Positions 40,768 through 55,825 of a stretch of DNA of 64,000 nucleotides are shown here, one piece after another. Below the pieces are notes generated by a model. It did not search any database. It was not told the origin of the DNA and worked only from the letters and a program-made list of their open reading frames with translations. A program made the translations under genes and the position numbers. Origin of the DNA: Paucihalobacter ruber (GTDB lineage: Bacteria > Bacteroidota > Bacteroidia > Flavobacteriales > Flavobacteriaceae); NCBI RefSeq assembly GCF_006494535.1, contig NZ_VHIQ01000004.1, forward strand, positions 1 through 64,000. The letters are read 5' to 3'. Numbering within the stretch: the stretch's first letter is position 1; each line of letters starts with the position of its first letter.

Positions 40768-43700
40768 ATGGAGTTAACCGAAAAATTTCTTCTTGAATTA
40801 CAAAATAGACTAAAAGTTGGTAGCAGAAGAGGAGTACATTTAAATGCTATTCCAGGTCGGTCTAGATATAAATTTGACCTAACAAGATTATCTCATATCG
40901 ACAAAAATTTACCCCAAAATTTTGTAGATGCCTTACTAACACAGTTACCTCTGAAGTTCAAAATCAGTTGGAAGGATAATGTTCCAGACCTTAATAGTCT
41001 CTTTGAGGATGACCAAGTGCAATTAGTTAAAATCACGAAATCTTTCGAAAATTTAATAAATCAAACTGATGCTATTGAGTCAGAAAAAGGTATTAACACT
41101 TTTGGCTTTGGTTTTCCAATTTTAATTAGACGTGATCAAACTGATAATAAGTTGACCGTAGCACCAGTGTTAATATGGTCATTAAGAATTAAAAGAACAA
41201 AAGATTTTAATACTTGGGAAGTTCAAAGAAATGAAGATGATCCCATTTACATTAATGAAGTTCTAATTAATCACTTACAAAATGATTCAAAAATTGAAAT
41301 TAATCAAATATCAGAAGAACATTTAGAAGATGGTATTATAGATAAAAATGAGCTGATAGATATATGTTTTAATCTTATCGATTCTATAAATACATCAACG
41401 CCTTCAGATTTAAAATCAACGTTTGAAAGAAAATTAAATCAGATCACACCAATAGGTGATAAAAAACATTATGAGTCCTTGCCTTTAACTTCAAATAATT
41501 CTTTTATTGACTTTGGCGGTATATTTTCAATTTTTGAGGTTCAAAAACAGAATATAATAAACGATTACAATGAGTTATTAGAACTAGCTGGTGACACAAT
41601 AGATTTGGAAGATATTGATGAATATTACTTTCAACCAATTTCATCTGTCGAAACAGATCCTTCTCAGCAAGGTATTTTACATTCACTAAATCACTCTCGA
41701 AATATTTTAATTCAAGGACCACCGGGAACAGGAAAAAGTCAGTCCTTAACTGCAATTTTGGTTAATGCACTTGAGAATAAGAAAAAAACTATTGTTGTAT
41801 GTGAAAAGCGAACGGCTTTAGAGGTTTTGAGCAACTCTCTAAATGAAAGAGGTTTAAATTTTCAAACTATCTTAATTAAAGATATAGTCAAAGATAGAAG
41901 GCTTGCCGTTGATTCTGTACGAGATAGAATAGATAACTCAGCTTATAGAAAATACCGATATACGCACTCCAAAGAAACTCTTGATAATATAATTAAGAAA
42001 TCTAAATCTCTAATAGATGCCATAAATAAAAGACATCAAAAATTAGATGAAAAATTACTTGGAAATAGCAATTGGACGAATATAGTAGGGGCATTCTTGT
42101 CTCAGCTTAAAGGGTTTTCAGAAGATTATAAACTCAATTTAAATAGTGAATTGTTTCAGTTCGAAACAGACGAGTTGAATAGATGGCTTGAATTAATTAG
42201 GCAAGGTCAAACGCTTTACCAGGAATATCAACCATATAATGAATTGTCTTTTTTAAATAGTGAAAAATTGGTAGGTGAAAATCCGTTTGTGGTTGAAAGA
42301 AGGATTAAAGAAGACTTCAAAAAATACGAGGATTTTTTAACGAAAATAATTGACAACTGGAATAAATTAAGATTAGAGTATTTTGAGATCAGAAGGAAGG
42401 AGTATGCACAACAAAAAAGGGTCATTGATAAATATTTAAAATCTTTAGGTAATATACTTCGTGAATATCAAGGCTCACCCGATTTTTTTGATGAGAGGAA
42501 GACATCAGGCGTGTTTTATAAAATTTCGGCAATATTTTCAAAGAATAAAAAAGAGTTGATTTCAGCCCAATTAGCTTTTGAAAAGAACTATTCTGAACTA
42601 GTTAGTATATCTGAAACATTTGACGATTTTCAAAATGTTGGAGCTTGTAATTCGATTGCAGAAAAGAAGAAAAAACTCGATGATTATTCAACAAAAATTG
42701 GCAGCGAAGAATTACAATTTCAGAATAAAATTGAAAATGAATATTCTGAATTGAATTTCTTTTCAAATTTGATTGATAAGTATGCTACAGCATCTTATCA
42801 TAAGCTAAAACAGACTTTGAATGACTTAAAATCAAAATTGATTGCAGATGAATGGGTAAAAGATGAAATACCTGAAAAACACCAGGAGTTTCTTACATCG
42901 ATTAACAATTTGATTGCAATAAAAAATCACTATTTCGAATATAATGAAGACCTGTTTTCAAAAGAATTCAAGTGGTTTCAATATTACAATTCTATTTCTT
43001 CAGATGAAAGAATGGTTATTAATCAGTTGTTGCAACAAGATGATTGGCGTAAAATATTTTTAATTAATTATTTTGACTTGCTACTGATTAGTAATGCTAA
43101 TATGGATTTGCCCACAGATGATAATGACCATATTGAACTAAATCATTCTCTCAAGAATTTGAAGACTGAACAAATTAGATACATTACAGAATATTGGTAT
43201 TCTCAACAAATAGACGCAACGCGAGAATTCGATCGCCGTAACCCAAGTTTATCAGTCGAAAATTTATACAATAAACGAGCTAGTTCCAAGTACAGAAGAC
43301 TTTCCCTTAGAGAAATAGTAAAATTTGATATTGATTTGTTTACCACATTTTTCCCTGTTATTCTAACTACTCCAGATGTTGCCAGTAATTTATTTAAAGG
43401 TAAAAACAAGTATTTTCATATTGTAATGTTTGATGAGGCAAGTCAATTGAAACTTGAAGATAATTTGCCGGCCCTTTTAAAGGGTAAACAAATTATAATT
43501 GCAGGTGATGAGCATCAAATGCCACCTTCAAATTATTTCAGTAAGATTTTTGACGGAACAATAGAAGATGAGGATGATTTTGAGGATGAGATTGAAAAAA
43601 TTAAAAGTAATGCAAGTAATTCCTTATTAGACTGTGAATCTTTATTAGATTTTGCCTCTGAATTGGGTTTTGATAAAAGGCACTTAGACTTTCATTATAG

Positions 43701-45147
43701 ATCTAGGCATCCTTATTTAATTGACTATTCGAATTTTGCTTTTTATAATCAAAGACTTAAACCACTCCCAAATGGTTTCGATTACAATCCTATTAAATTC
43801 GTTCAAGTAAACGGTACATATTCAGATAATTCTAATGACGCAGAGGCAGAAATGGTTCTTTCTATTATTGAAAATAACATTTCAAAAATGCCAAATGGTA
43901 AATACCCATCAGTTGGAGTTGCCACATTCAACATAAATCAGCGAAATCTAATTCTTAGTAAAATTAATGAAAGAAGAAAGTTTGATAGTTTTAAGGATTT
44001 TAATGATAAAATTCAAGAGTTTGAGGATAATGGATTCTTTGTTAAAAATTTAGAAAACATTCAGGGAGACGAAAGAGACGTTATTATTCTATCAACAACC
44101 TATGGTATAAATAAAGACGGAAAGTTTGCCCAAAGATTTGGTTCTATAAATCATTCAAAAGGATACAAACTTCTTAACGTTATTATTACTCGTGCAAAAT
44201 ATAAAATATACGTTTGTTCATCTATTCCTCAAGAGGTGTTTTTGAATTATAAGGAACATTTAATAACCGAAGGGTCAAATAATAGAAGAGCTGTATTTTA
44301 TGCATATTTAGCATATGCAAAAGCAGTTAGTGAACAAGATGAAGAAGGAAGATTAGCTATCTTAAACAATCTAGCTGAAAATTCAACTAAGACAACCTCA
44401 ATCGATAGTTTTAATGCAGATTTAGAATCTCCATTCGAGGAAGAAGTTTTTGAGGCTTTAAAAGAACATTTTGATGAATCTAAAATCACCCCTCAACTAA
44501 AGTTTGCCGGTTTTAGAATTGATCTCGTCTACAACTCAAATAAACCGGGGATTCCGCCAATTGCAATTGAATGTGACGGTGCAGATTATCACTCTAGTCA
44601 AGAAGCTTACTTATATGATAGACATAGGCAAAAAATATTGGAAGGTCATGGTTTTGTGTTCCATAGAATCTGGAGTACCAATTGGTGGAGAAATTCAAAA
44701 GCCGAAACACGAAAATTAGTTGAATTTATTAAAGGAGTAGAAAGCCAAATTCATTTACAAATCGAAGATAGATCAAGTACAAGCCAAGCTTTTACTGATA
44801 ATATTGTGCGCGTTGAAGACAAAATAGGAAATTCCAGTCCAGTTTTCGCGAATGATAGCAAAGAAAAGGTTAATTCATTTGGCGAACTTGATCTTATATT
44901 TCATGAGAACGATAAACCTAAAATTGAACTCAATTCTAAAGTAAAAATCAAGTACATCAATTTAGATAAAGATTTAAAAGTTCAACTGGTTGATCAGATT
45001 ATTTTAAATCCTTTTAAAAATGATGGCGTACAAAAAATTAATATAAAATCACCTCTGGCAATAGCTTTAAAAGGCAGGAGCGTTGGGGATACTGTTAAAA
45101 TTGGAAATTTGGATAATTATGTAAAAATTTTGGAAATTTTAAATTGA
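40768..45147 (+). CDS. DUF4011-like superfamily 1 helicase with C-terminal nuclease (Hhe-like)
   Basis: 1459 residues. N-terminal part resembles DUF4011 (FGFGFPILIRRDQ..., then APVLIWSLRIKRTKDFNTWE). Helicase core: Walker A GPPGTGKSQSLTAI (317-330), DEAS box near 890 (VMFDEASQLK), AGDEHQMPPS, HYRSRHPYLIDYSNFAFYN, NIQGDERDVIILSTTYG and NVIITRAKYKIYV. A central insert of about 400 residues is helical. The C-terminal REase_MTES_1575/Vsr-like nuclease has GFRIDLVYNS (Asp1252), ECDG (about 1267) and YDRHRQKILEGHGF. This domain order matches single-gene Hhe antiphage proteins. Motifs complete; defence role from family. Confidence 0.85.
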   Translation: MELTEKFLLELQNRLKVGSRRGVHLNAIPGRSRYKFDLTRLSHIDKNLPQNFVDALLTQLPLKFKISWKDNVPDLNSLFEDDQVQLVKITKSFENLINQTDAIESEKGINTFGFGFPILIRRDQTDNKLTVAPVLIWSLRIKRTKDFNTWEVQRNEDDPIYINEVLINHLQNDSKIEINQISEEHLEDGIIDKNELIDICFNLIDSINTSTPSDLKSTFERKLNQITPIGDKKHYESLPLTSNNSFIDFGGIFSIFEVQKQNIINDYNELLELAGDTIDLEDIDEYYFQPISSVETDPSQQGILHSLNHSRNILIQGPPGTGKSQSLTAILVNALENKKKTIVVCEKRTALEVLSNSLNERGLNFQTILIKDIVKDRRLAVDSVRDRIDNSAYRKYRYTHSKETLDNIIKKSKSLIDAINKRHQKLDEKLLGNSNWTNIVGAFLSQLKGFSEDYKLNLNSELFQFETDELNRWLELIRQGQTLYQEYQPYNELSFLNSEKLVGENPFVVERRIKEDFKKYEDFLTKIIDNWNKLRLEYFEIRRKEYAQQKRVIDKYLKSLGNILREYQGSPDFFDERKTSGVFYKISAIFSKNKKELISAQLAFEKNYSELVSISETFDDFQNVGACNSIAEKKKKLDDYSTKIGSEELQFQNKIENEYSELNFFSNLIDKYATASYHKLKQTLNDLKSKLIADEWVKDEIPEKHQEFLTSINNLIAIKNHYFEYNEDLFSKEFKWFQYYNSISSDERMVINQLLQQDDWRKIFLINYFDLLLISNANMDLPTDDNDHIELNHSLKNLKTEQIRYITEYWYSQQIDATREFDRRNPSLSVENLYNKRASSKYRRLSLREIVKFDIDLFTTFFPVILTTPDVASNLFKGKNKYFHIVMFDEASQLKLEDNLPALLKGKQIIIAGDEHQMPPSNYFSKIFDGTIEDEDDFEDEIEKIKSNASNSLLDCESLLDFASELGFDKRHLDFHYRSRHPYLIDYSNFAFYNQRLKPLPNGFDYNPIKFVQVNGTYSDNSNDAEAEMVLSIIENNISKMPNGKYPSVGVATFNINQRNLILSKINERRKFDSFKDFNDKIQEFEDNGFFVKNLENIQGDERDVIILSTTYGINKDGKFAQRFGSINHSKGYKLLNVIITRAKYKIYVCSSIPQEVFLNYKEHLITEGSNNRRAVFYAYLAYAKAVSEQDEEGRLAILNNLAENSTKTTSIDSFNADLESPFEEEVFEALKEHFDESKITPQLKFAGFRIDLVYNSNKPGIPPIAIECDGADYHSSQEAYLYDRHRQKILEGHGFVFHRIWSTNWWRNSKAETRKLVEFIKGVESQIHLQIEDRSSTSQAFTDNIVRVEDKIGNSSPVFANDSKEKVNSFGELDLIFHENDKPKIELNSKVKIKYINLDKDLKVQLVDQIILNPFKNDGVQKINIKSPLAIALKGRSVGDTVKIGNLDNYVKILEILN

Positions 45148-45421: not shown

Positions 45422-45880
45422 AAAACTTTCTCCTACGCCGGTAAATTATTGTTAACCCCAATTCGTAGTAAGAAAGTTTTTCTAATTTCAGGTTAGTTGC
45501 AGCATTAACCTGAAGGTTTATTAATCTTAGCCAGGTTAGCAAATATTAAAAACTTTCTTAATTACTGTATGCACTAAATTAATACGTTATAATTGGACTG
45601 CGCAGGTAAATTACCAGTAATTTACCTACGCCGAGGAAAGTTTTTCTAATTTCAGGTTAGTTGCAGCATTAACCTGAAGGTTTATTAATCTTAGCCAGGT
45701 TAGCAAATATTAAAAACTTTCTTAATTACTGTATGCACTAAATTAATGCGCTATAATTGCACGGCGAAGGTAAAATACCAGTAAAATACCAGTAAAATAC
45801 CAGTAAATTACGAGTAATTTACCTGCGCAGTGGAAAGTTTTTCTAATTTTAGGTTAGTTGCATCATTAGCCGACATTGTT
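45422..45880 (+). repeat. Tandem repeats of 163-197 bp with GAAAGTTTTT ends
   Basis: Copies begin at GAAAGTTTTT at 45473, 45636 and 45833, after an opening AAAAACTTTC at 45422. Each holds GGTTAGTTGCAGCATTAACC and a palindrome GGTAAATTA...TAATTTACC. The third copy is partial and preceded by an expanded 11-bp unit (GTAAAATACCA). A further copy lies at 50926-51045. Confidence 0.85.
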
Positions 45881-46349: not shown

Positions 46350-46748
46350 ATGAAACGGTTTATCACAGTAACAGCAGTTATGCTTAGTTTAATAGCTACG
46401 GCACAAAGCCCGATAGAATCTGAGCAATCTACTAACAAATGCACTGCTACGGTTTACAATGCTAAAGATTATGTTGGGCAAAACATAACTGTTTGCGGTT
46501 ATGTGGCTCAGGTAAGTACCGTTGAAAGTATTAATGGACAACCCACATACATTAACATGGGTGGTAAATACCCCAACCACCATTTTACAGCCGTAATTTG
46601 GAAAAAAAATATTCTTAGCTGGGAAGGCGCCAACCTGCAAGAATACAACAATCAACTGCTGGCCATTACCGGTGAAGTGGTCCTTTACAAAGGACAAGCT
46701 CAAATTACGGTTTATACACCGAAGCAAATAGAAATAATTAAGTTGTAG
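46350..46748 (+). CDS. Secreted OB-fold-like protein
   Basis: 132 residues. A signal peptide is plain: MKRFITVTAVMLSLIATAQS. The mature part has the OB-fold rhythm: AKDYVGQNITVCGYVAQVST, INMGGKYPNHHFTAVIWKKN and LAITGEVVLYKGQAQITVY. Similar exported OB-fold proteins bind nucleic acid or are unknown. It stands alone after the repeat region; the flanking arrangement suggests a single-gene cassette. No defence role can be shown. Confidence 0.68.
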   Translation: MKRFITVTAVMLSLIATAQSPIESEQSTNKCTATVYNAKDYVGQNITVCGYVAQVSTVESINGQPTYINMGGKYPNHHFTAVIWKKNILSWEGANLQEYNNQLLAITGEVVLYKGQAQITVYTPKQIEIIKL

Positions 46749-46878
46749 TTCTGCAAGATCTTACGGAATCCCGTAAAAATCTATAAAACAACTTCCGTAT
46801 TTTTAAATTTTTTAAATGTCATATGATTAAAAATAACTTTTTAAACAGTTGGTTGTTAGAGTTTTTTATGATTTTGAT

Positions 46879-46886
46879 TATATTTG
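46879..46886 (+). promoter_or_regulatory. -7 element before the tRNA-like RNA
   Basis: TATATTTG matches TAnnTTTG exactly. A weak TTG at 46853-46855 is the only -33 candidate. Transcription would start near 46893, about 90 nt before the tRNA-like fold. Confidence 0.45.
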
Positions 46887-46985
46887 AAAAAAGATATTAT
46901 ACTAACACGGGAATATCCTGTAAAGTTGGAACAAAACCATTGATAAACTTTATGATATATTCAAGTTAAAAACAAGCTGAAAAAA

Positions 46986-47084
46986 GAAGGATTAGCATCA
47001 AGGTGATGCGCAGGCAATGACGTAATTTTTTTGAAAGAATTTATGTTACTGCCTGTTAGGTTGGTTCGATTCCAACATCCTTCA
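46986..47084 (+). ncRNA. tRNA-like RNA with a long hairpin in place of the anticodon arm
   Basis: Folded by hand. Acceptor stem GAAGGAT / ATCCTTC, 7 perfect pairs (46986-46992 with 47077-47083), then discriminator A and CA. D arm GCATC-AAGGT-GATGC, 5 bp. T arm GTTGG-TTCGATT-CCAAC, perfect 5 bp with a standard T loop. The anticodon arm (47011-47055) starts CAGGCA / TGCCTG and extends to about 18 pairs in 20, with a short AU-rich tip. No anticodon can be read. No tRNA introns of this kind are known in bacteria. The 3' end is 13 nt before the HEPN gene's ATG. Confidence 0.75.
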
Positions 47085-47097
47085 CATATAAAAAAAT

Positions 47098-47844
47098 ATG
47101 ATTGTAAGAACCAACGCTTTTAACACACTACAAAGACAAGTACAAGAAACGTTTGACTTCGCTGTGGTTGTTTGTCATTCGGTTCCTGCCTTAAAACTAC
47201 AAATGACTTTACTGGATAAAGGGACTATAAATCAATTACCAACACCTGACTATTTTACAATTAACTCCACAACAGAATTGAGAGCTCAAGCAAAAGGATA
47301 TAAAGAAAAGCTTGCGACATATTTGTTTCTTAGTTCATTCTCCTTTTTTGAAAATTATTTCGGTTCTGTTTTAAAAGAAATATTTGATTTAAACACATCT
47401 ATACCTGACAAAGCCACTCTTGAAAACAGTCTGAAGAATAATACGAACACAAAACCAAAAAGAGCCTTAATAGGAACTTATAACAAAAAACATCATCAAC
47501 GATATGAAAAGTATTCTTTCGAACTCAAAACAAACGGATATATAACCCCTGACGAACTTTTAAAAATTGTAGCGTTCAACAACTTATACAAAACGATACA
47601 AAATCTAAAAGCCAATGAAATCCCAGATTTTCTAATATCTCATTTTAAAATTGAAATTACAGATTTAGAAAAATCACAATTCAGTAATTATAGACAACTT
47701 AGAAATGATATAGCTCACGGAGATCATCCAAAATTAGATTTAAGGAAAGTAAAAGAAGCCAATGCGTTTTTGAGAAAATTAGCTGCTAAAATAGACGACT
47801 TTTTAACTGAACATTACATAAAATTGAATAACTACTTGGAATGA
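47098..47844 (+). CDS. HEPN domain protein, RiboL-PSP-like
   Basis: 248 residues. HEPN proteins are alpha-helical RNases, toxins or nucleotide-binding domains. The catalytic Rx4-6H motif is present as RNDIAHG (Arg202, His207), preceded by SNYRQL and followed by DHPKLD, as in the RiboL-PSP/MAE-type HEPN groups. The N-terminal 90 residues are helical (LATYLFLSSFSFFENYFG is a conserved helix in this class). The start lies 13 nt beyond the tRNA-like RNA. RNase activity and any link to that RNA are inference; motif presence is direct. Confidence 0.8.
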   Translation: MIVRTNAFNTLQRQVQETFDFAVVVCHSVPALKLQMTLLDKGTINQLPTPDYFTINSTTELRAQAKGYKEKLATYLFLSSFSFFENYFGSVLKEIFDLNTSIPDKATLENSLKNNTNTKPKRALIGTYNKKHHQRYEKYSFELKTNGYITPDELLKIVAFNNLYKTIQNLKANEIPDFLISHFKIEITDLEKSQFSNYRQLRNDIAHGDHPKLDLRKVKEANAFLRKLAAKIDDFLTEHYIKLNNYLE

Positions 47845-47896
47845 AAAGCCATTTGCCAACAACGTCTGTAAAAAATCGTGGTTTAATATACAAACA

Positions 47897-47910
47897 CGTT
47901 ACCGGCAACC
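47897..47910 (+). repeat. Left half of an inverted repeat around DUF262-HEPN
   Basis: CGTTACCGGCAACC. Its reverse complement matches 49580-49593 in 12 of 14 bases. The two copies bracket the DUF262 and second HEPN genes. Confidence 0.5.
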
Positions 47911-47957: not shown

Positions 47958-48959
47958 ATGGATAGAGTAGAATATCAATCAATGGTCATTCAAGATATAA
48001 TTAATCTTGAAGATAAAGGAGAACTAAATACAACTCCTTGGTATCAAAGAAGGTCTGTTTGGAATCAAGGACAAAAATCTTACTTGATAAATACGATTTT
48101 TGAAAAGAAACCAATACCATCACTATATATCCGACATTCACTTGACCTAGACAAAGGAATAAGCATCAAGGAAGTTGTAGATGGGCAACAAAGGACGCGA
48201 GCTATAATTAGTTTTTGTAATAATGAATTTACAGCAAGGCATCCGGAAAGCAATAAACTAATTAAGTTTAGTGAGTTAAATAAAACTCAAAAACAGAATT
48301 TTTTACTTACCGCAATTCCTGTGGGCTTCCTTCTTGGCGCAACAGATGCAGACGTTATAGATATTTTTGCAAGAATCAATTCTGTTGCAAAAACACTAAA
48401 TTCACAGGAAAAACGAAATGCACAATTTAGCGGAGAGTTTAAACAATTTAGTGTTAAACAAGCTGTCAAAAGAACCGAGTTTTGGAAGGAGTATGGAATT
48501 TTTACAGGTAACGATATTGCAAGAATGAATGAAGTTCAATTCGTTTCTGATGTCGTTATTAACTTAATGGATGGTCTTACGGCCTACAGTGCAGCAAAAG
48601 TTACGAAGTACTATAAGGATTATGATGAAAATTTGGAAAACATTGATCGTTTAAGTAACAGACTTGACAATATTTTTGACATTTGTGTATCGTTGAATCC
48701 ATCTTCGATAAAACAAACTATTTTTAATCGTCCTCCAATTTTCTTCTCATTGTTACTTGTGTTAGACGAAATAAAAAAACCAAATATTAGTAAAATAGAA
48801 AAAGGATTAGCGGAAATCGATAATAGGTTTAATTCGGATACTCCAGTTTCCGACAGACCTAAAGAAGATATAAATTTTTATAATGCTTGTTCCGCAACAA
48901 CGCAATCCCTACCAAACAGAAAAGTAAGAGCTAATTATATAAAATCATTCATCGAATAG
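47958..48959 (+). CDS. DUF262 (GmrSD N-terminal type) protein
   Basis: 333 residues. DUF262 is the ParB-like NTP-binding N-terminal domain of GmrSD type IV restriction enzymes. Key motifs: TTPWYQRRSVWNQGQKSYLI (residues 24-43) and EVVDGQQRTRAIISF (72-86). The DUF1524 nuclease half of GmrSD is absent. The gene instead overlaps a HEPN gene by 1 nt (TAGTG). In such pairs DUF262 may sense or use nucleotides while HEPN cleaves RNA, which is inference. Confidence 0.85.
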   Translation: MDRVEYQSMVIQDIINLEDKGELNTTPWYQRRSVWNQGQKSYLINTIFEKKPIPSLYIRHSLDLDKGISIKEVVDGQQRTRAIISFCNNEFTARHPESNKLIKFSELNKTQKQNFLLTAIPVGFLLGATDADVIDIFARINSVAKTLNSQEKRNAQFSGEFKQFSVKQAVKRTEFWKEYGIFTGNDIARMNEVQFVSDVVINLMDGLTAYSAAKVTKYYKDYDENLENIDRLSNRLDNIFDICVSLNPSSIKQTIFNRPPIFFSLLLVLDEIKKPNISKIEKGLAEIDNRFNSDTPVSDRPKEDINFYNACSATTQSLPNRKVRANYIKSFIE

Positions 48960-49570
48960 TGCCAAGAGTCAATGTTATAACGACCTTAAATAACAGTCGT
49001 AATGATATCGCTCTTCTAAATAATTACATACAAAGCTCTAGAAATCTTGAAGCAAAGTATCAACATATGATTAGCGAAGTTGTTATGCTAAGACTGTTTT
49101 CAATATTGGAGCATTCGATATCAGAGTTTGCTTTCAAATTCGCTTGTGGTGCTGTTTACAGAAATGGAAGTAGGCCACGTGTTCATACGATATGCAGGAG
49201 CCTACAAGATGCAAATACACAAATGTTATCCTATGGAAGAAGAAATCCACTACCATACCATAGATGGACTAAGGATAATCTTATACAAAAAAGCATTCAA
49301 AATGTATTGGACATTACAGATTCCTTTTTTTTACAAATTCAGGTGCACTCGAATTTAATAGACGAAATGCGGATAGTTAGAAATCACATTGCACATAAAT
49401 CAGCAATTACTAAAAGAGAATACTACACTTTATTGACCAACCTCTACGGTGGAAATCCAAGAATTACAGCAGGTGCATTTCTCGCTTCAACTACTCGACA
49501 ACCGAGAGCTAATATTGCCAAGTATATAATTGCGACTAAAATTATTTTGAATGACATTTCCAACGGTTAA
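48959..49570 (+). CDS. HEPN domain protein coupled to DUF262
   Basis: 203 residues, GTG start overlapping the DUF262 stop (TAGTG). Motif RNHIAH (Arg141, His146) fits Rx4H of HEPN. The helix AKYQHMISEVVMLRLFSILE is another HEPN landmark. No other domain. As second gene of a coupled pair it is likely the RNase effector, with DUF262 as partner. A related HEPN gene lies just upstream and a third follows at 50057. RNase function not shown. Confidence 0.78.
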   Translation: MPRVNVITTLNNSRNDIALLNNYIQSSRNLEAKYQHMISEVVMLRLFSILEHSISEFAFKFACGAVYRNGSRPRVHTICRSLQDANTQMLSYGRRNPLPYHRWTKDNLIQKSIQNVLDITDSFFLQIQVHSNLIDEMRIVRNHIAHKSAITKREYYTLLTNLYGGNPRITAGAFLASTTRQPRANIAKYIIATKIILNDISNG

Positions 49571-51547: not shown

Positions 51548-54500
51548 ATGCCTCTATTTCAAACATCCGTATTAAAGTCTCATTTAGCGCAACAAGATCA
51601 TGGCGCAATTGCGCAACTCTATAAAAAGTACGCAGCCTATTTTCATAACATCACCATTCAGGAAAACATTAAAAACTCTAAAGAAGAACAGTACCAGGCC
51701 AAGTTTTTAGATGAACTGTTTGTAAATATTCTGGGCTATACGCTTAATCCGCATCCTGAATTTAATTTGACAACTGAGTTTAAAAACCAAAAAGGAGCCG
51801 GCAAAGCAGATGGAGCCATTTTAAAAGATAACAAAGCCATTGGTGTGATTGAGCTAAAAGGCACCGGAACCAAAGATTTAGAAAGCATACGCAAACAGGC
51901 CTTCGATTATAAGGCCAATCAAAAAGGGTGCGTTTACGTAATTACTTCCAACTTCGAAAAACTGCGCTTTTATATCAACGATGCCACCGAATTTTTAGAG
52001 TTTAACCTCTTTCAATTGGCACCCGAAGAATTTGCGCTGCTGCATTTATGTCTTCACAAAAACAATTTGCTCAATAATTTACCGCTTAGCATTAAAGAAG
52101 CTTCGTTGGTTGAAGAAGAACACATCACCAAACAGTTTTACAAAGATTATTCTGTATTTAAACGCGAGCTGTTTAGAGACCTGGTTAAGCGCAATGCCAA
52201 AAGATTAAAAGCAGACGCGGCGCAATTAAACAATAATGCGCAAGATGAAGTAATATCCATAGAGAAAAACGTTAAACTATCGCTATTTAAAAAGTCACAA
52301 AAGCTTATAGACCGTTTTCTGTTTATATTTTTTGCTGAAGACCGCGATCTGTTGCCGCCCAACTCCACCATTCAAATATTAGATAAGTGGAAAGCCGATG
52401 TTGACTTTGGAGACGAGCGGCCATTATACAACTTGTTTAAACAGTATTTTCACTTTTTAGATACCGGCAGAAAAGGCACCGGGTCCAGGGCCGAAATTTA
52501 TGCCTACAACGGCGGCTTGTTTAAACCCGATACCATTCTCGATAACCTTGAGATAGACGATCAACTGCTATATAAACACACTTACCAATTAGCCAAATAC
52601 GATTTTAGCTCTCAAGTAGATGTCAATATTTTAGGCCATATTTTTGAAAACTCACTAAACGAAATAGAAAGTGTTAATGCCGAAATTGAAGGCGGCCAGT
52701 TCGATAAGCAAACCAGCAAGCGTAAAAAAGATGGCGTTTTTTACACCCCCAAATACATTACCAAATACATAGTAGAAAACACCGTTGGCAAGTTATGCCA
52801 GGAAAAAAAAGAGACCTTAGGTTTTAAAGAAGAGGCCTATTTTGAAGTTAAAAAGGGCACGCAAACCAACACCAAAAAAGCACTGTTACAAATATTAGAT
52901 GATTACCGTAACTGGTTGTTGCAAATTACCATCTGCGATCCGGCGTGTGGCAGCGGCGCATTTTTAAACCAGGCGTTAGACTTTTTAATTAAGGAGCATA
53001 GATATATAGACGAATTAAAAGCCAAGGTTTTAGGTGGCGGTTTGATATTAAGCGATATTGAAAACACCATTTTAGAAAACAATATTTATGGCGTAGATTT
53101 AAACGAAGAAAGCGTAGAAATAGCCAAATTGTCTCTATGGCTGCGCACTGCACAACCACGCCGAAAGCTCAACGATTTAAGCAGCAATATTAAATGCGGT
53201 AACAGCTTAATAGACGATAAAAAAGTAGCCGGCGACAAGGCTTTTAACTGGCAACAAGAATTTCCTCAAATCTTTACAAAAGGTGGCTTTGATGTGGTGA
53301 TTGGGAATCCGCCTTATGTTAGACACGAATTAATCACTGAATATAAAGATTATTTAGCAGATAATTATTTGGTTTTTCAAAGCACAGCGGATCTTTACGT
53401 TTATTTTATTGAGAAAGGGCTGTTGATTCTTAAATATAACGGATTTATGGGTTATATAACACCAAACAAATTTGTAAGTGTCACTTATGGCAAAAATTTA
53501 AGAGAAATAATCGGTAATAAATACTGGATTGATAAACTTATTGACTTTGGTGAATTACCTGTTTTTTCTGATGCTGCGACGTTTCCCTTTATATCTATAA
53601 TTAGGAATATTTCACCTTCAGCACCTTCAAAATTCGTGAAAATACAAAGCTTAAAAAATCTTGATATTGACATAGCTTTAAAAAATGACGGTATAATCGT
53701 ATCAACAGAAGTATTTAAATTATCAGACTGGAGACTTATACCTGAAAACGAAGGTGATTTGTTAAAGAAAATCTCCATGGTAGGAGTTGAGCTTAAAAAT
53801 TATTTAGAAGTACCTTTTTATAGGGGTATTTTAACAGGGTTTAATGAAGCGTTCATTATTAATGAAGTCACTAAATCAAAGCTAATTGACCAAGACAATA
53901 AATCAAAGGAAATTATAAAACCATTCGTTGACGGGGATGATGTCCGAAATTACCACCTTAGGAGCAAAAATAAATACATAATATTTACTAGGAGAGGAAC
54001 AGATATTGAGAGATATCCAGCTATTAAAAAACACTTACAAGAGTTTTACGACAAGTTGGTCCCTAAGACTAAGAATACGGATAAAGTTGGCAGAAAAAAA
54101 GGTGATTATCGGTGGTACGAGATTCAAGATTCAATAAGCTACTTTAATGAGTTTGAAAAACCTAAAATTATTTACCCAGAAATTGCTAAAGAATCTCGGT
54201 TTACATTGGATTTAAACAAAGTTTATTTAAACAAAACTATTTTTTTTATACCAATAGAGGATTATTACCTATTGAGTATTTTAAATTCTCGCGTTGTTTG
54301 GTTTTTTCTATCTAATACCTGTACGGCCTTGGGAGACCCAAAGAACGGTGGTAGATTAAATATTCAAAAAGTTTATCTTGAAAAGACTCCTATTCCAAAA
54401 GATATTGATAAGAATATTCGCACTTACTTAGAAGAAAAATCAAAAACTCAATTAACACTGTGTACGCAACTGTATAACGACACAAATAAGTTTTTATTCT

Positions 54501-54790
54501 ATATAGAATCTACATTGAATGTGGTTGACTTCAGTAAAAAACTAGAAACCTGGTATGGCTTAGAATTTTCAGAATTCATCACAGAGTTAAACAAAGCAAT
54601 TAAAAAATCCGGCGGCGTTGCTTTGAGTAAAAAAGACGAGTTTGAGTGGTTAGAATTATTTGAAGACAACAAGAAAAAAGCGCAAGAACTGCGCGCGCAA
54701 ATTGCGCAAACAGAAAAGGCCATTGATGATATGGTTTATGATTTGTATGGGTTAACCCAGGAAGAACGAGAGATTGTAGAGAATAGTTAA
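51548..54790 (+). CDS. Single-chain restriction-modification enzyme (type IIG-like)
   Basis: 1080 residues, Eco57I/BREX-PglX-like arrangement. N-terminal PD-(D/E)xK nuclease with GAGKADGAI (Asp88) and IELKG (Glu102, Lys104). Methyltransferase: motif I CDPACGSGAFLNQALDFL (about 462-479) and the catalytic NPPY in VVIGNPPYVRHE (about 583-594), an N6-adenine type. C-terminal specificity region with ILNSRVVWFFLSNT and a terminal helical tail. Both activities in one chain, plus no separate specificity subunit, fit type IIG. Uses GCGC-rich codons unlike its AT-rich neighbours. The next gene starts 18 nt later. Confidence 0.87.
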   Translation: MPLFQTSVLKSHLAQQDHGAIAQLYKKYAAYFHNITIQENIKNSKEEQYQAKFLDELFVNILGYTLNPHPEFNLTTEFKNQKGAGKADGAILKDNKAIGVIELKGTGTKDLESIRKQAFDYKANQKGCVYVITSNFEKLRFYINDATEFLEFNLFQLAPEEFALLHLCLHKNNLLNNLPLSIKEASLVEEEHITKQFYKDYSVFKRELFRDLVKRNAKRLKADAAQLNNNAQDEVISIEKNVKLSLFKKSQKLIDRFLFIFFAEDRDLLPPNSTIQILDKWKADVDFGDERPLYNLFKQYFHFLDTGRKGTGSRAEIYAYNGGLFKPDTILDNLEIDDQLLYKHTYQLAKYDFSSQVDVNILGHIFENSLNEIESVNAEIEGGQFDKQTSKRKKDGVFYTPKYITKYIVENTVGKLCQEKKETLGFKEEAYFEVKKGTQTNTKKALLQILDDYRNWLLQITICDPACGSGAFLNQALDFLIKEHRYIDELKAKVLGGGLILSDIENTILENNIYGVDLNEESVEIAKLSLWLRTAQPRRKLNDLSSNIKCGNSLIDDKKVAGDKAFNWQQEFPQIFTKGGFDVVIGNPPYVRHELITEYKDYLADNYLVFQSTADLYVYFIEKGLLILKYNGFMGYITPNKFVSVTYGKNLREIIGNKYWIDKLIDFGELPVFSDAATFPFISIIRNISPSAPSKFVKIQSLKNLDIDIALKNDGIIVSTEVFKLSDWRLIPENEGDLLKKISMVGVELKNYLEVPFYRGILTGFNEAFIINEVTKSKLIDQDNKSKEIIKPFVDGDDVRNYHLRSKNKYIIFTRRGTDIERYPAIKKHLQEFYDKLVPKTKNTDKVGRKKGDYRWYEIQDSISYFNEFEKPKIIYPEIAKESRFTLDLNKVYLNKTIFFIPIEDYYLLSILNSRVVWFFLSNTCTALGDPKNGGRLNIQKVYLEKTPIPKDIDKNIRTYLEEKSKTQLTLCTQLYNDTNKFLFYIESTLNVVDFSKKLETWYGLEFSEFITELNKAIKKSGGVALSKKDEFEWLELFEDNKKKAQELRAQIAQTEKAIDDMVYDLYGLTQEEREIVENS

Positions 54791-54808
54791 TCAAATAAAA
54801 CATATTAG

Positions 54809-55825
54809 TTGAATACTAAGAAATTCAAAATATTATCAATAGATGGAGGTGGTATAAGAGGTGTTTTCCCTGCATATCTATTAATGCTAATTGAATCTGA
54901 ACTTGAAAAAAGAAAGGACGGAAAAACTAAAATATATCAACACTTTGATTTAATTACGGGAACATCAACCGGTGGAATAATTGCATTAGCTCTTTCTTTT
55001 GGAATACCAGTAAAGGAAATTTATGAGTTGTACTTGAATAATGCCAAAAGCATTTTTGGAAAGAAAAAAAGTTTTATTAAGCAACTATTTTTTGCTTCAC
55101 ATAAAAGTGATTTTTTAGAGAATTTGATAAAGAATAAATTTAAAGAATATAACCGTGGAGTTGATCCTAGATTAAAGGACTGCAAAACCGATGTATGTAT
55201 TCCAATTTATGACCTAGTTAGAGGAAATCCAAGTGTATTAAAAACACCATACCACGAGGCTTTCAATCGAGATTTTCACATACCTGCTTATAAGGTAGCT
55301 ATGGCAACTGCGGCTGCCCCAACTTATTTTAATCCTTATTCTAGTAATTATCTTGACTTGGATAATATTAATAAATCATTTATTAACAAAGTAGATGGAG
55401 GAGTAATGGCCAATAACCCAGCATTAGTTGCGTTTCTCGAAGCAATAAAAGCATTTAATGTTGATATTTCTGATTTGGAAATTTTTTCAATTGGTACTGG
55501 TTATAAAAAGTTTACAGATATTAATTTTAGAAAAAATTGGGGTTTATACTATTGGATGGGCAAGAATAATAGAAAAAGACTCATCGAATTGTTTATGCAA
55601 AGCCAATCTCAACTAGTGGCTAATTATATAAGCTTGTTACATGAAGGAATTGATAGAAGAGAAAAAGAGAATTTTGTCTATGATAGAGTAGATGTTGAAT
55701 TGACCGAAGATAGTCTTTTGGAAATGGACGAATATGATATGAAATTAATTTCAAATTTTGCCGAATTAGCTTCAATTGAGTATCAATATAAAAAAACTGA
55801 GATTTTAAAAAGACATTTTTATTGA
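54809..55825 (+). CDS. CapV-like patatin phospholipase (CBASS effector)
   Basis: 338 residues, TTG start 18 nt after the restriction-modification gene. Patatin fold: oxyanion loop IDGGGIRGVF (GGGIRG 13-18), nucleophile GTSTG (Ser53) and catalytic Asp in VDGGVMANNPALVAF (Asp196). In type I CBASS such effectors are switched on by a cyclic nucleotide and degrade membrane phospholipids. It lies 16 nt upstream of a CD-NTase gene, the expected pair. All catalytic motifs intact. Confidence 0.9.
   Translation: MNTKKFKILSIDGGGIRGVFPAYLLMLIESELEKRKDGKTKIYQHFDLITGTSTGGIIALALSFGIPVKEIYELYLNNAKSIFGKKKSFIKQLFFASHKSDFLENLIKNKFKEYNRGVDPRLKDCKTDVCIPIYDLVRGNPSVLKTPYHEAFNRDFHIPAYKVAMATAAAPTYFNPYSSNYLDLDNINKSFINKVDGGVMANNPALVAFLEAIKAFNVDISDLEIFSIGTGYKKFTDINFRKNWGLYYWMGKNNRKRLIELFMQSQSQLVANYISLLHEGIDRREKENFVYDRVDVELTEDSLLEMDEYDMKLISNFAELASIEYQYKKTEILKRHFY

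Follow-up and report, generated by a model that had tools for sequence, protein, structure and literature searches.

Analysis of a 64,000-nucleotide (nt) stretch of the Paucihalobacter ruber genome (contig NZ_VHIQ01000004.1, positions 1 to 64,000; hereafter, the window) identified a predicted 99-nt RNA that is shaped like a transfer RNA (tRNA), carries a greatly enlarged anticodon arm, and lies directly upstream of a gene for a RiboL-PSP-HEPN protein, a predicted ribonuclease toxin. The RNA and the HEPN gene were found together at all three known loci, 12-13 nt apart and among different neighboring genes. The explanation that we favor, and hold tentatively, is that the pair forms a mobile toxin-antitoxin or abortive-infection cassette in which the RNA would act as a pseudosubstrate that blocks the HEPN protein.

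A tRNA-like RNA upstream of a HEPN gene

The predicted RNA occupies positions 46986..47084 on the + strand, as defined by its predicted fold and by an alignment of the three loci. It is closed by a 7-base-pair (bp) acceptor stem (46986-46992/47077-47083, +), followed by TA at RNA positions 8-9 (U8-A9) and by a D arm (46995-47009, +) whose loop contains GG; at the other end are a T arm (47060-47076, +; GTTGG-TTCGATT-CCAAC, a 5-bp stem with the canonical TTCGATT loop) and a discriminator A (47084, +). RNAfold reproduced the coordinates, acceptor, T stem and T loop that a first-pass annotation of the window had described. In the place of the anticodon arm is a 47-nt hairpin (47010..47056, +) of 20 pairs, arranged as helices of 7, 8 and 5 bp with two 1x1 mismatches; its 7-bp base (GCAGGCA/TGCCTGT) is invariant, and its distal helix is A/U-rich with a small loop. 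The earlier description of a hairpin of about 20 bp stands as a count of pairs, and mismatches interrupt the helix both here and in the two relatives (7+4+8 bp and 7+3+8 bp). The 5-bp D stem, with its 5-nt loop, proved to be one of two readings, the other being 6 bp with a 3-nt loop, and the variable region (47057-47059, +), given earlier as 4 nt, can be read as 3-4 nt from the fold.

The minimum free energy of 46986-47084 was -40.2 by RNAfold, compared to a shuffle mean of -19.3 (z = -6.40), and none of 200 shuffles equaled it. Similar z-scores were obtained for the Aquimarina and Galbibacter RNAs (-6.55 and -6.59), and the long arm comprises 18-20 pairs in each of the three. A strict cloverleaf descriptor matched once in the window, at the RNA locus, and not at all in 20 mononucleotide shuffles of the window.

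We conclude that this is not a standard tRNA. It shares with tRNAs the acceptor, D and T arms, the T loop and the discriminator; the normal anticodon arm is replaced by the ~20-bp hairpin, and there is no 7-nt anticodon loop. ARAGORN called no tRNA at 46986-47084, and Rfam called no family there at gathering score. Of the tRNA models that the first-pass annotation had proposed as a check, tRNA (RF00005) did not match at the locus in either the gathering-score or the permissive Rfam scan, and the best match at a permissive E value was tRNA-Sec (RF01852), whose 23.5 bits fall below the cut-off of 47. CCA is not encoded after the discriminator, as is also the case for 21 of the 24 host tRNAs that could be parsed (28 loci were listed, four of them unparsed, from 34 host tRNA matches overall). 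The arm tip UGAAA, present in two of the three RNAs, resembles a tRNA-Phe anticodon loop by eye, and we gave this no weight.

Likeness to true tRNA genes was evident when we built a covariance model, R1, from the three RNAs. Across 104 genomes of the class, R1 matched 12 genomes besides its own, end to end and at 30-35 bits, and among nine of these loci that were fetched, ARAGORN called eight tRNA-Phe genes and one tRNA-Asn(att). The T arm is identical to those of two tRNA-Phe genes (L109 and L116). Among 34 host tRNA entries, agreement with the acceptor of the RNA did not exceed 4 of 7 positions, in a comparison that used only the sequence starts, entered one tRNA twice and left at least one host tRNA outside; the RNA therefore does not resemble a recent copy of a resident tRNA gene.

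Two other unusual tRNA-like elements were seen. One, at L110 1501-1581, is an 81-nt element called tRNA-Asn(att) that has an odd anticodon region and a minimum-energy fold that is not a clean cloverleaf; the adjoining open reading frames (ORFs) appear phage-like by eye. The other, at 2123-2247 of a viral contig (L043), is 125 nt long and shares the GAAGGAT acceptor and the T arm of the RNA in the window, around a 76-nt middle part. It received no ARAGORN call and had a fold z-score of just -1.9; its 5' part was found in no other viral contig, and its matches in phage records were short and weak.

The downstream gene (47098..47844, +) encodes a 248-amino-acid protein that matches the PF18735 profile at 47.8 bits, against a gathering cut-off of 28.4. 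Its ATG at 47098 follows the RNA end at 47084, leaving the 13-nt gap that had been noted earlier. The protein contains the HEPN-type motif RNDIAH at residues 202-207 (47701-47718, +), which is invariant at the three loci and fits the Rx4-6H pattern as R202-NDIA-H207. With a fixed pattern, a motif of the same type was present at 20 of 23 PF18735 loci examined, this one included and a 24th left out. PADLOC returned only weak matches, to its CARF-HEPN (E = 1.2e-5) and RTasHEPN (E = 0.028) models, PHROGs and NCBIfam returned nothing useful for the protein, and a PDB sequence search with it gave no match at E values up to 1. AlphaFold2, supplied with three sequences, predicted an all-helical structure at low confidence (mean predicted local distance difference test score, 52).

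Conservation and distribution of the RNA-HEPN unit

A single scan of an 84,980-species collection, by a method that finds close relatives, returned two related loci, one in Aquimarina aquimarini (L040; HEPN protein 92% identical) and one in Galbibacter orientalis (L041; 83% identical). Both carry a 99-nt RNA with an enlarged arm before a 248-amino-acid HEPN gene, at distances of 13 and 12 nt, respectively. Homologues had been named in the first-pass annotation as the test of whether RNA and gene belong together, and on this evidence a functional pair is well supported. The length of the spacer (47085..47097, +, in the window) is kept and its sequence is not conserved. All three genomes contain a single forward copy of the RNA; the weaker second match corresponds to its opposite strand. 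Outside the unit, both sequence and genes differ among the loci: helicase-nuclease, GmrSD_N and type IIG restriction genes flank it in the window, an HTH_17 gene and five ORFs without a Pfam match in Aquimarina, and a DNA methylase gene and an MvaI/BcnI restriction gene in Galbibacter.

We compared the RNA with four-fold degenerate sites. Between the window and Galbibacter, where silent sites are almost saturated, 20 of 59 four-fold sites were identical, compared to 85 of 100 RNA positions. The corresponding counts were 52/71 and 93/99 for the window and Aquimarina, and 25/62 and 88/100 for Aquimarina and Galbibacter. Since RNA identity lies far above that of the four-fold sites and the unit is shared, the RNA is kept by selection and travels with the HEPN gene, and it is unlikely to be a chance fold or a pseudogene. 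Invariant columns across the three loci comprise 14/14 in the acceptor, 14/14 in the proximal anticodon arm, 16/17 in the T arm, 13/16 in the D arm, 23/33 in the distal anticodon arm and 1/3 in the variable region. The distal part of the long arm is the most variable among the arms; individual sequences carry mispairs at some of its positions, and a position between helices reads G-U, G-G and A-A across the three RNAs.

Occurrences of the unit appear to be rare and scattered, which is what horizontally moving cargo would be expected to show. R1 found no further RNA in 396 other genomes of the family (at most 10 candidates scored per genome) or in 51 other genomes from the genus of the Aquimarina genome (at most 79 candidates each), under strict filters that can miss diverged copies. 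Searches with the HEPN protein or its profile gave no match in partly overlapping samples of 198, 394 and 98 other genomes. Against phages and plasmids, neither the HEPN protein (tblastn) nor the 941-bp unit (blastn) gave a match at E values up to 0.01. In viral contigs, we found neither the HEPN gene nor the D-arm and anticodon-arm patterns of the RNA; the T-arm pattern matched once, in L043.

Two broader sets of DNA matches were set aside. A search of 395 genomes of the order with the RNA matched 88 genomes at E values up to 0.01, its own included; the others were 18-44-base fragments, many in genomes of ~0.6 Mb, and were judged to be chance. A search of phages at E values up to 10 gave 85 records, of which the 15 listed lay in endonuclease-type or hypothetical genes with a best E value of 0.02, and these were rejected.

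PF18735 itself was found in 21 of 345 genomes of the phylum, with 24 matches in total. We rejected the notion that all PF18735 genes have an RNA of this kind, as the cloverleaf descriptor matched at 0 of the 23 other loci. Folding of the region upstream of 22 of these (one gave no frame) yielded z-scores below -2.5 at three (L094, L097 and L098), compared to -4.06 at the locus in the window; by eye, the low-scoring folds of L097 and L098 are attC-like palindromes. The tRNA-like partner has been seen only in this subfamily of PF18735.

Possible functions of the RNA-HEPN pair

Among the roles that the first-pass annotation had suggested for the RNA, antitoxin, substrate and guide are indistinguishable by sequence, and we favor an antitoxin that acts as a pseudosubstrate. 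According to this model, the RNA and the HEPN gene would be co-transcribed, because they are 13 nt apart and no terminator-like site lies between them (a simple pattern found none in 46740-47200). The tRNA-shaped ends could allow the RNA to be cut free by host RNase P at the 5' end and by RNase Z or exonucleases at the 3' end. The HEPN protein would bind the free RNA, whose long closed hairpin would fill an active site meant for tRNA anticodon loops, and the bound RNA would keep the toxin silent. Loss of the RNA, for example through phage transcription shut-off or disturbed tRNA metabolism, would free the HEPN protein, which could then cut tRNA or other RNA and stop the infected cell. It is possible, and more doubtful, that the unit represents a toxin-antitoxin class with a tRNA-mimic antidote, in which the enlarged anticodon arm could not be cut and the shape of the toxin substrate became that of an inhibitor.

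A close parallel is AbiF and its RNA AbiFr, which is reported to inhibit the AbiF HEPN nuclease; AbiF has also been proposed as the ancestor of Cas13 (PMC12737573). In Clostridioides difficile, a ~100-nt RNA (RCd22) upstream of the AbiF gene is described as neutralizing the toxin by direct RNA-protein contact (PMC12373285). There as here, a HEPN-type toxin gene (here predicted) is directly preceded by a structured RNA of ~100 nt, and co-transcription, which occurs by readthrough as reported for AbiF (PMC12373285, PMC12737573), is likely here. The unit in the window differs in having a PF18735 HEPN domain, a tRNA cloverleaf and no terminator-like site between RNA and gene. The HEPN protein had no Pfam match to Abi_2, the AbiF protein family, at E values up to 0.1, and the abiF RNA motif (RF03085) had no match at E values up to 5 in 46750-47110. 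By the features tested, the unit is not a member of the AbiF/AbiFr group, and it may still work in the same way.

Type III toxin-antitoxin systems such as ToxIN also have an RNA gene immediately before the gene for an endoribonuclease, with a terminator between the two; their RNA consists of tandem repeats and forms a pseudoknot. The position of the RNA before a (here predicted) ribonuclease gene is alike. However, a tRNA shape takes the place of the pseudoknot, no ToxN-type Pfam match was obtained, no tandem repeat is present at 46986-47084, and the search of 46740-47200 gave no terminator-like site. Nor did those of the neighboring ORFs that we scanned in the window, L040 and L041 include a match to the MNT nucleotidyltransferase of HEPN-MNT pairs. 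To judge by these features, the unit is neither a ToxIN-type type III system nor a HEPN-MNT system.

HEPN enzymes that attack tRNA are known elsewhere. PrrC and RloC are reported to cut tRNA anticodon loops (PMC3710099), and Cas13a, a HEPN effector, is reported to cut tRNAs with U-rich anticodons within their anticodon loops (PMC11042736). The likeness to these lies in the HEPN enzyme, with anticodon-loop cutting described for all three of them; unlike the protein studied here, they are large, regulated proteins. We know of no neighboring tRNA-like RNA for PrrC, RloC or Cas13a. A pseudo-tRNA of Bacillus cereus, tRNAOther, is described as tRNA-like, not used in translation and located beside an island; the abstract of that report does not mention a HEPN partner (PMC3399842). 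A search of the open-licence literature found no tRNA-like RNA paired with a HEPN gene among the matches listed, and nothing on RiboL-PSP together with HEPN.

Several points weigh against the pseudosubstrate model. Occurrences of the unit number just three, and the 23 other PF18735 loci without a cloverleaf indicate that the family does not need the RNA. We found no promoter at a common place: a weak candidate element (TATATTTG; 46879..46886, +), 107 nt before the RNA, resembles the TAnnTTTG promoter consensus, and a similar element is present in Galbibacter (at -118) and missing in Aquimarina, so that two of three loci have it at differing distances; sigma-70-like sites in the region numbered 2, compared to 1.9 expected. 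The compensatory changes in the long arm that had been put forward as a test did not appear in the three sequences; the only change that affects both sides of a pair lies in the D stem (C-G to U-G to U-A). Column shuffles reached the observed covariation score in 319 of 500 cases, so the pairing cannot be proved by covariation with three sequences. Sliding the structure by 1-3 columns gave pairing in 39-51% of cells, compared to 97.3% unslid, a control that favors a structure derived from the same sequences. Finally, sequence does not tell inhibition by the RNA from activation or regulation.

The main rival, to which we give a lower probability, is that the tRNA-like structure is a cis-acting leader that controls translation or stability of the HEPN mRNA. 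The HEPN protein could bind or cut its own leader, resulting in autoregulation, or tRNA-processing enzymes could trim the mRNA and so couple its expression to tRNA metabolism. Such a leader would be 12-13 nt away from the start codon, where a ribosome that initiates translation could reach it; the RNA is in cis at three of three loci, the lack of a terminator-like site fits, and the yjdF riboswitch, reported to have a tRNA-like fold, offers a precedent (PMC9142559). However, a full cloverleaf with a discriminator and conserved D and T arms would seem to exceed what a leader needs. This explanation is compatible with an antitoxin, and the two could coexist.

It is rather improbable that the RNA is instead an activating cofactor or bait that senses a phage anticodon nuclease, tRNA repair or tRNA modification and turns on a silent, bound HEPN protein. 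Restriction and defense-like genes are nearby in the window and in L041, and tRNA mimicry would suit a bait for tRNA-targeting enzymes, but activation requires more assumptions than neutralization. A tRNA-derived element with a function of its own, such as a specialized or decoding tRNA with an odd arm beside which the HEPN gene is a mere neighbor, is very unlikely: although R1 also scores true tRNA genes, the RNA has no 7-nt anticodon loop, is paired with HEPN at three of three loci in different contexts, and was not seen without HEPN among the candidates scored in the 396 family and 51 genus genomes. Least probable of all is an integration landmark or a tRNA pseudogene that a mobile element left behind, for which one might cite that islands are often flanked by tRNA genes and that the unit borders look attC-like by eye; the landmark proposed in the first-pass annotation is disfavored because the RNA is part of the conserved unit and the flanking sequences are different, and the low agreement with host acceptors and an RNA that evolves far more slowly than synonymous sites also argue against such an origin.

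If the pseudosubstrate model is true, a second HEPN family with a tRNA-shaped RNA partner would point to more than one origin of such pairs, and the unit would allow a direct test of how a toxin substrate is turned into an inhibitor. The RNA partner also gives the PF18735 HEPN family a testable role, namely tRNA cutting with the mimic as a block.

Unit borders and neighboring genes

The left border is a short leader (AACAAGCTGAAAAAA; 46971..46985, +), in which AACAAGCT, invariant at the three loci, is followed by an A-rich stretch. A similar sequence, ACAAGCTGAAAAA, precedes another PF18735 gene, L098. On the right (47845..47906, +), AAAGCCATTTGCCAACAACGT is followed by an imperfect palindrome that ends in CGTTACCGGC and appears attC-like by eye; across the loci, the unit ends in GCCA(G/T)TTGCCA, continued by ACAACGT in two of three, and is followed by imperfect palindromes. 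Membership of these borders in an integron was not established: the integron integrase model TIGR02249 gave no match over its cut-off in five genomes, with weaker matches in all five and in all 14 control genomes, and recurrence of the border motifs in the window was not beyond chance.

Imperfect, attC-like palindromes were seen near HEPN genes in the window (47855-47906), L041 (3019-3146), L097 and L098, by pattern in L097 and L041 and by eye in the other two. Those of L097 (1249-1376 and 2089-2219, -) stand one on each side of the HEPN match, and that of L098 lies upstream of HEPN with, by eye, the same leader. L097 and L098 come from two genomes of the same family, and the palindromes give these loci the look of gene cassettes.

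Downstream of the unit, the window contains a GmrSD_N/DUF262 gene (47958-49570; PADLOC NsnA, 113 bits) and, immediately after it, a second HEPN-like ORF that has an RNHIAH motif and falls below Pfam cut-offs; the two may form a further two-gene defense unit. A type IIG restriction-methylase match and then a protein matching PADLOC phospholipase effectors follow at 51548-55825, which places the unit among defense-like genes. Upstream, 40768-45147 encodes a 1459-amino-acid helicase-nuclease with AAA_11/12, an MTES_1575 restriction endonuclease domain and a GreA/GreB C-terminal domain, matched by PADLOC as PDC-S37 and Hhe. In Galbibacter, group II intron signals and a maturase ORF (L041 5013-6832) occur shortly downstream of the HEPN gene. 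A 164-bp tandem repeat of 1.9 copies (45472-45784) lies in the long upstream stretch of the window that has no clear gene.
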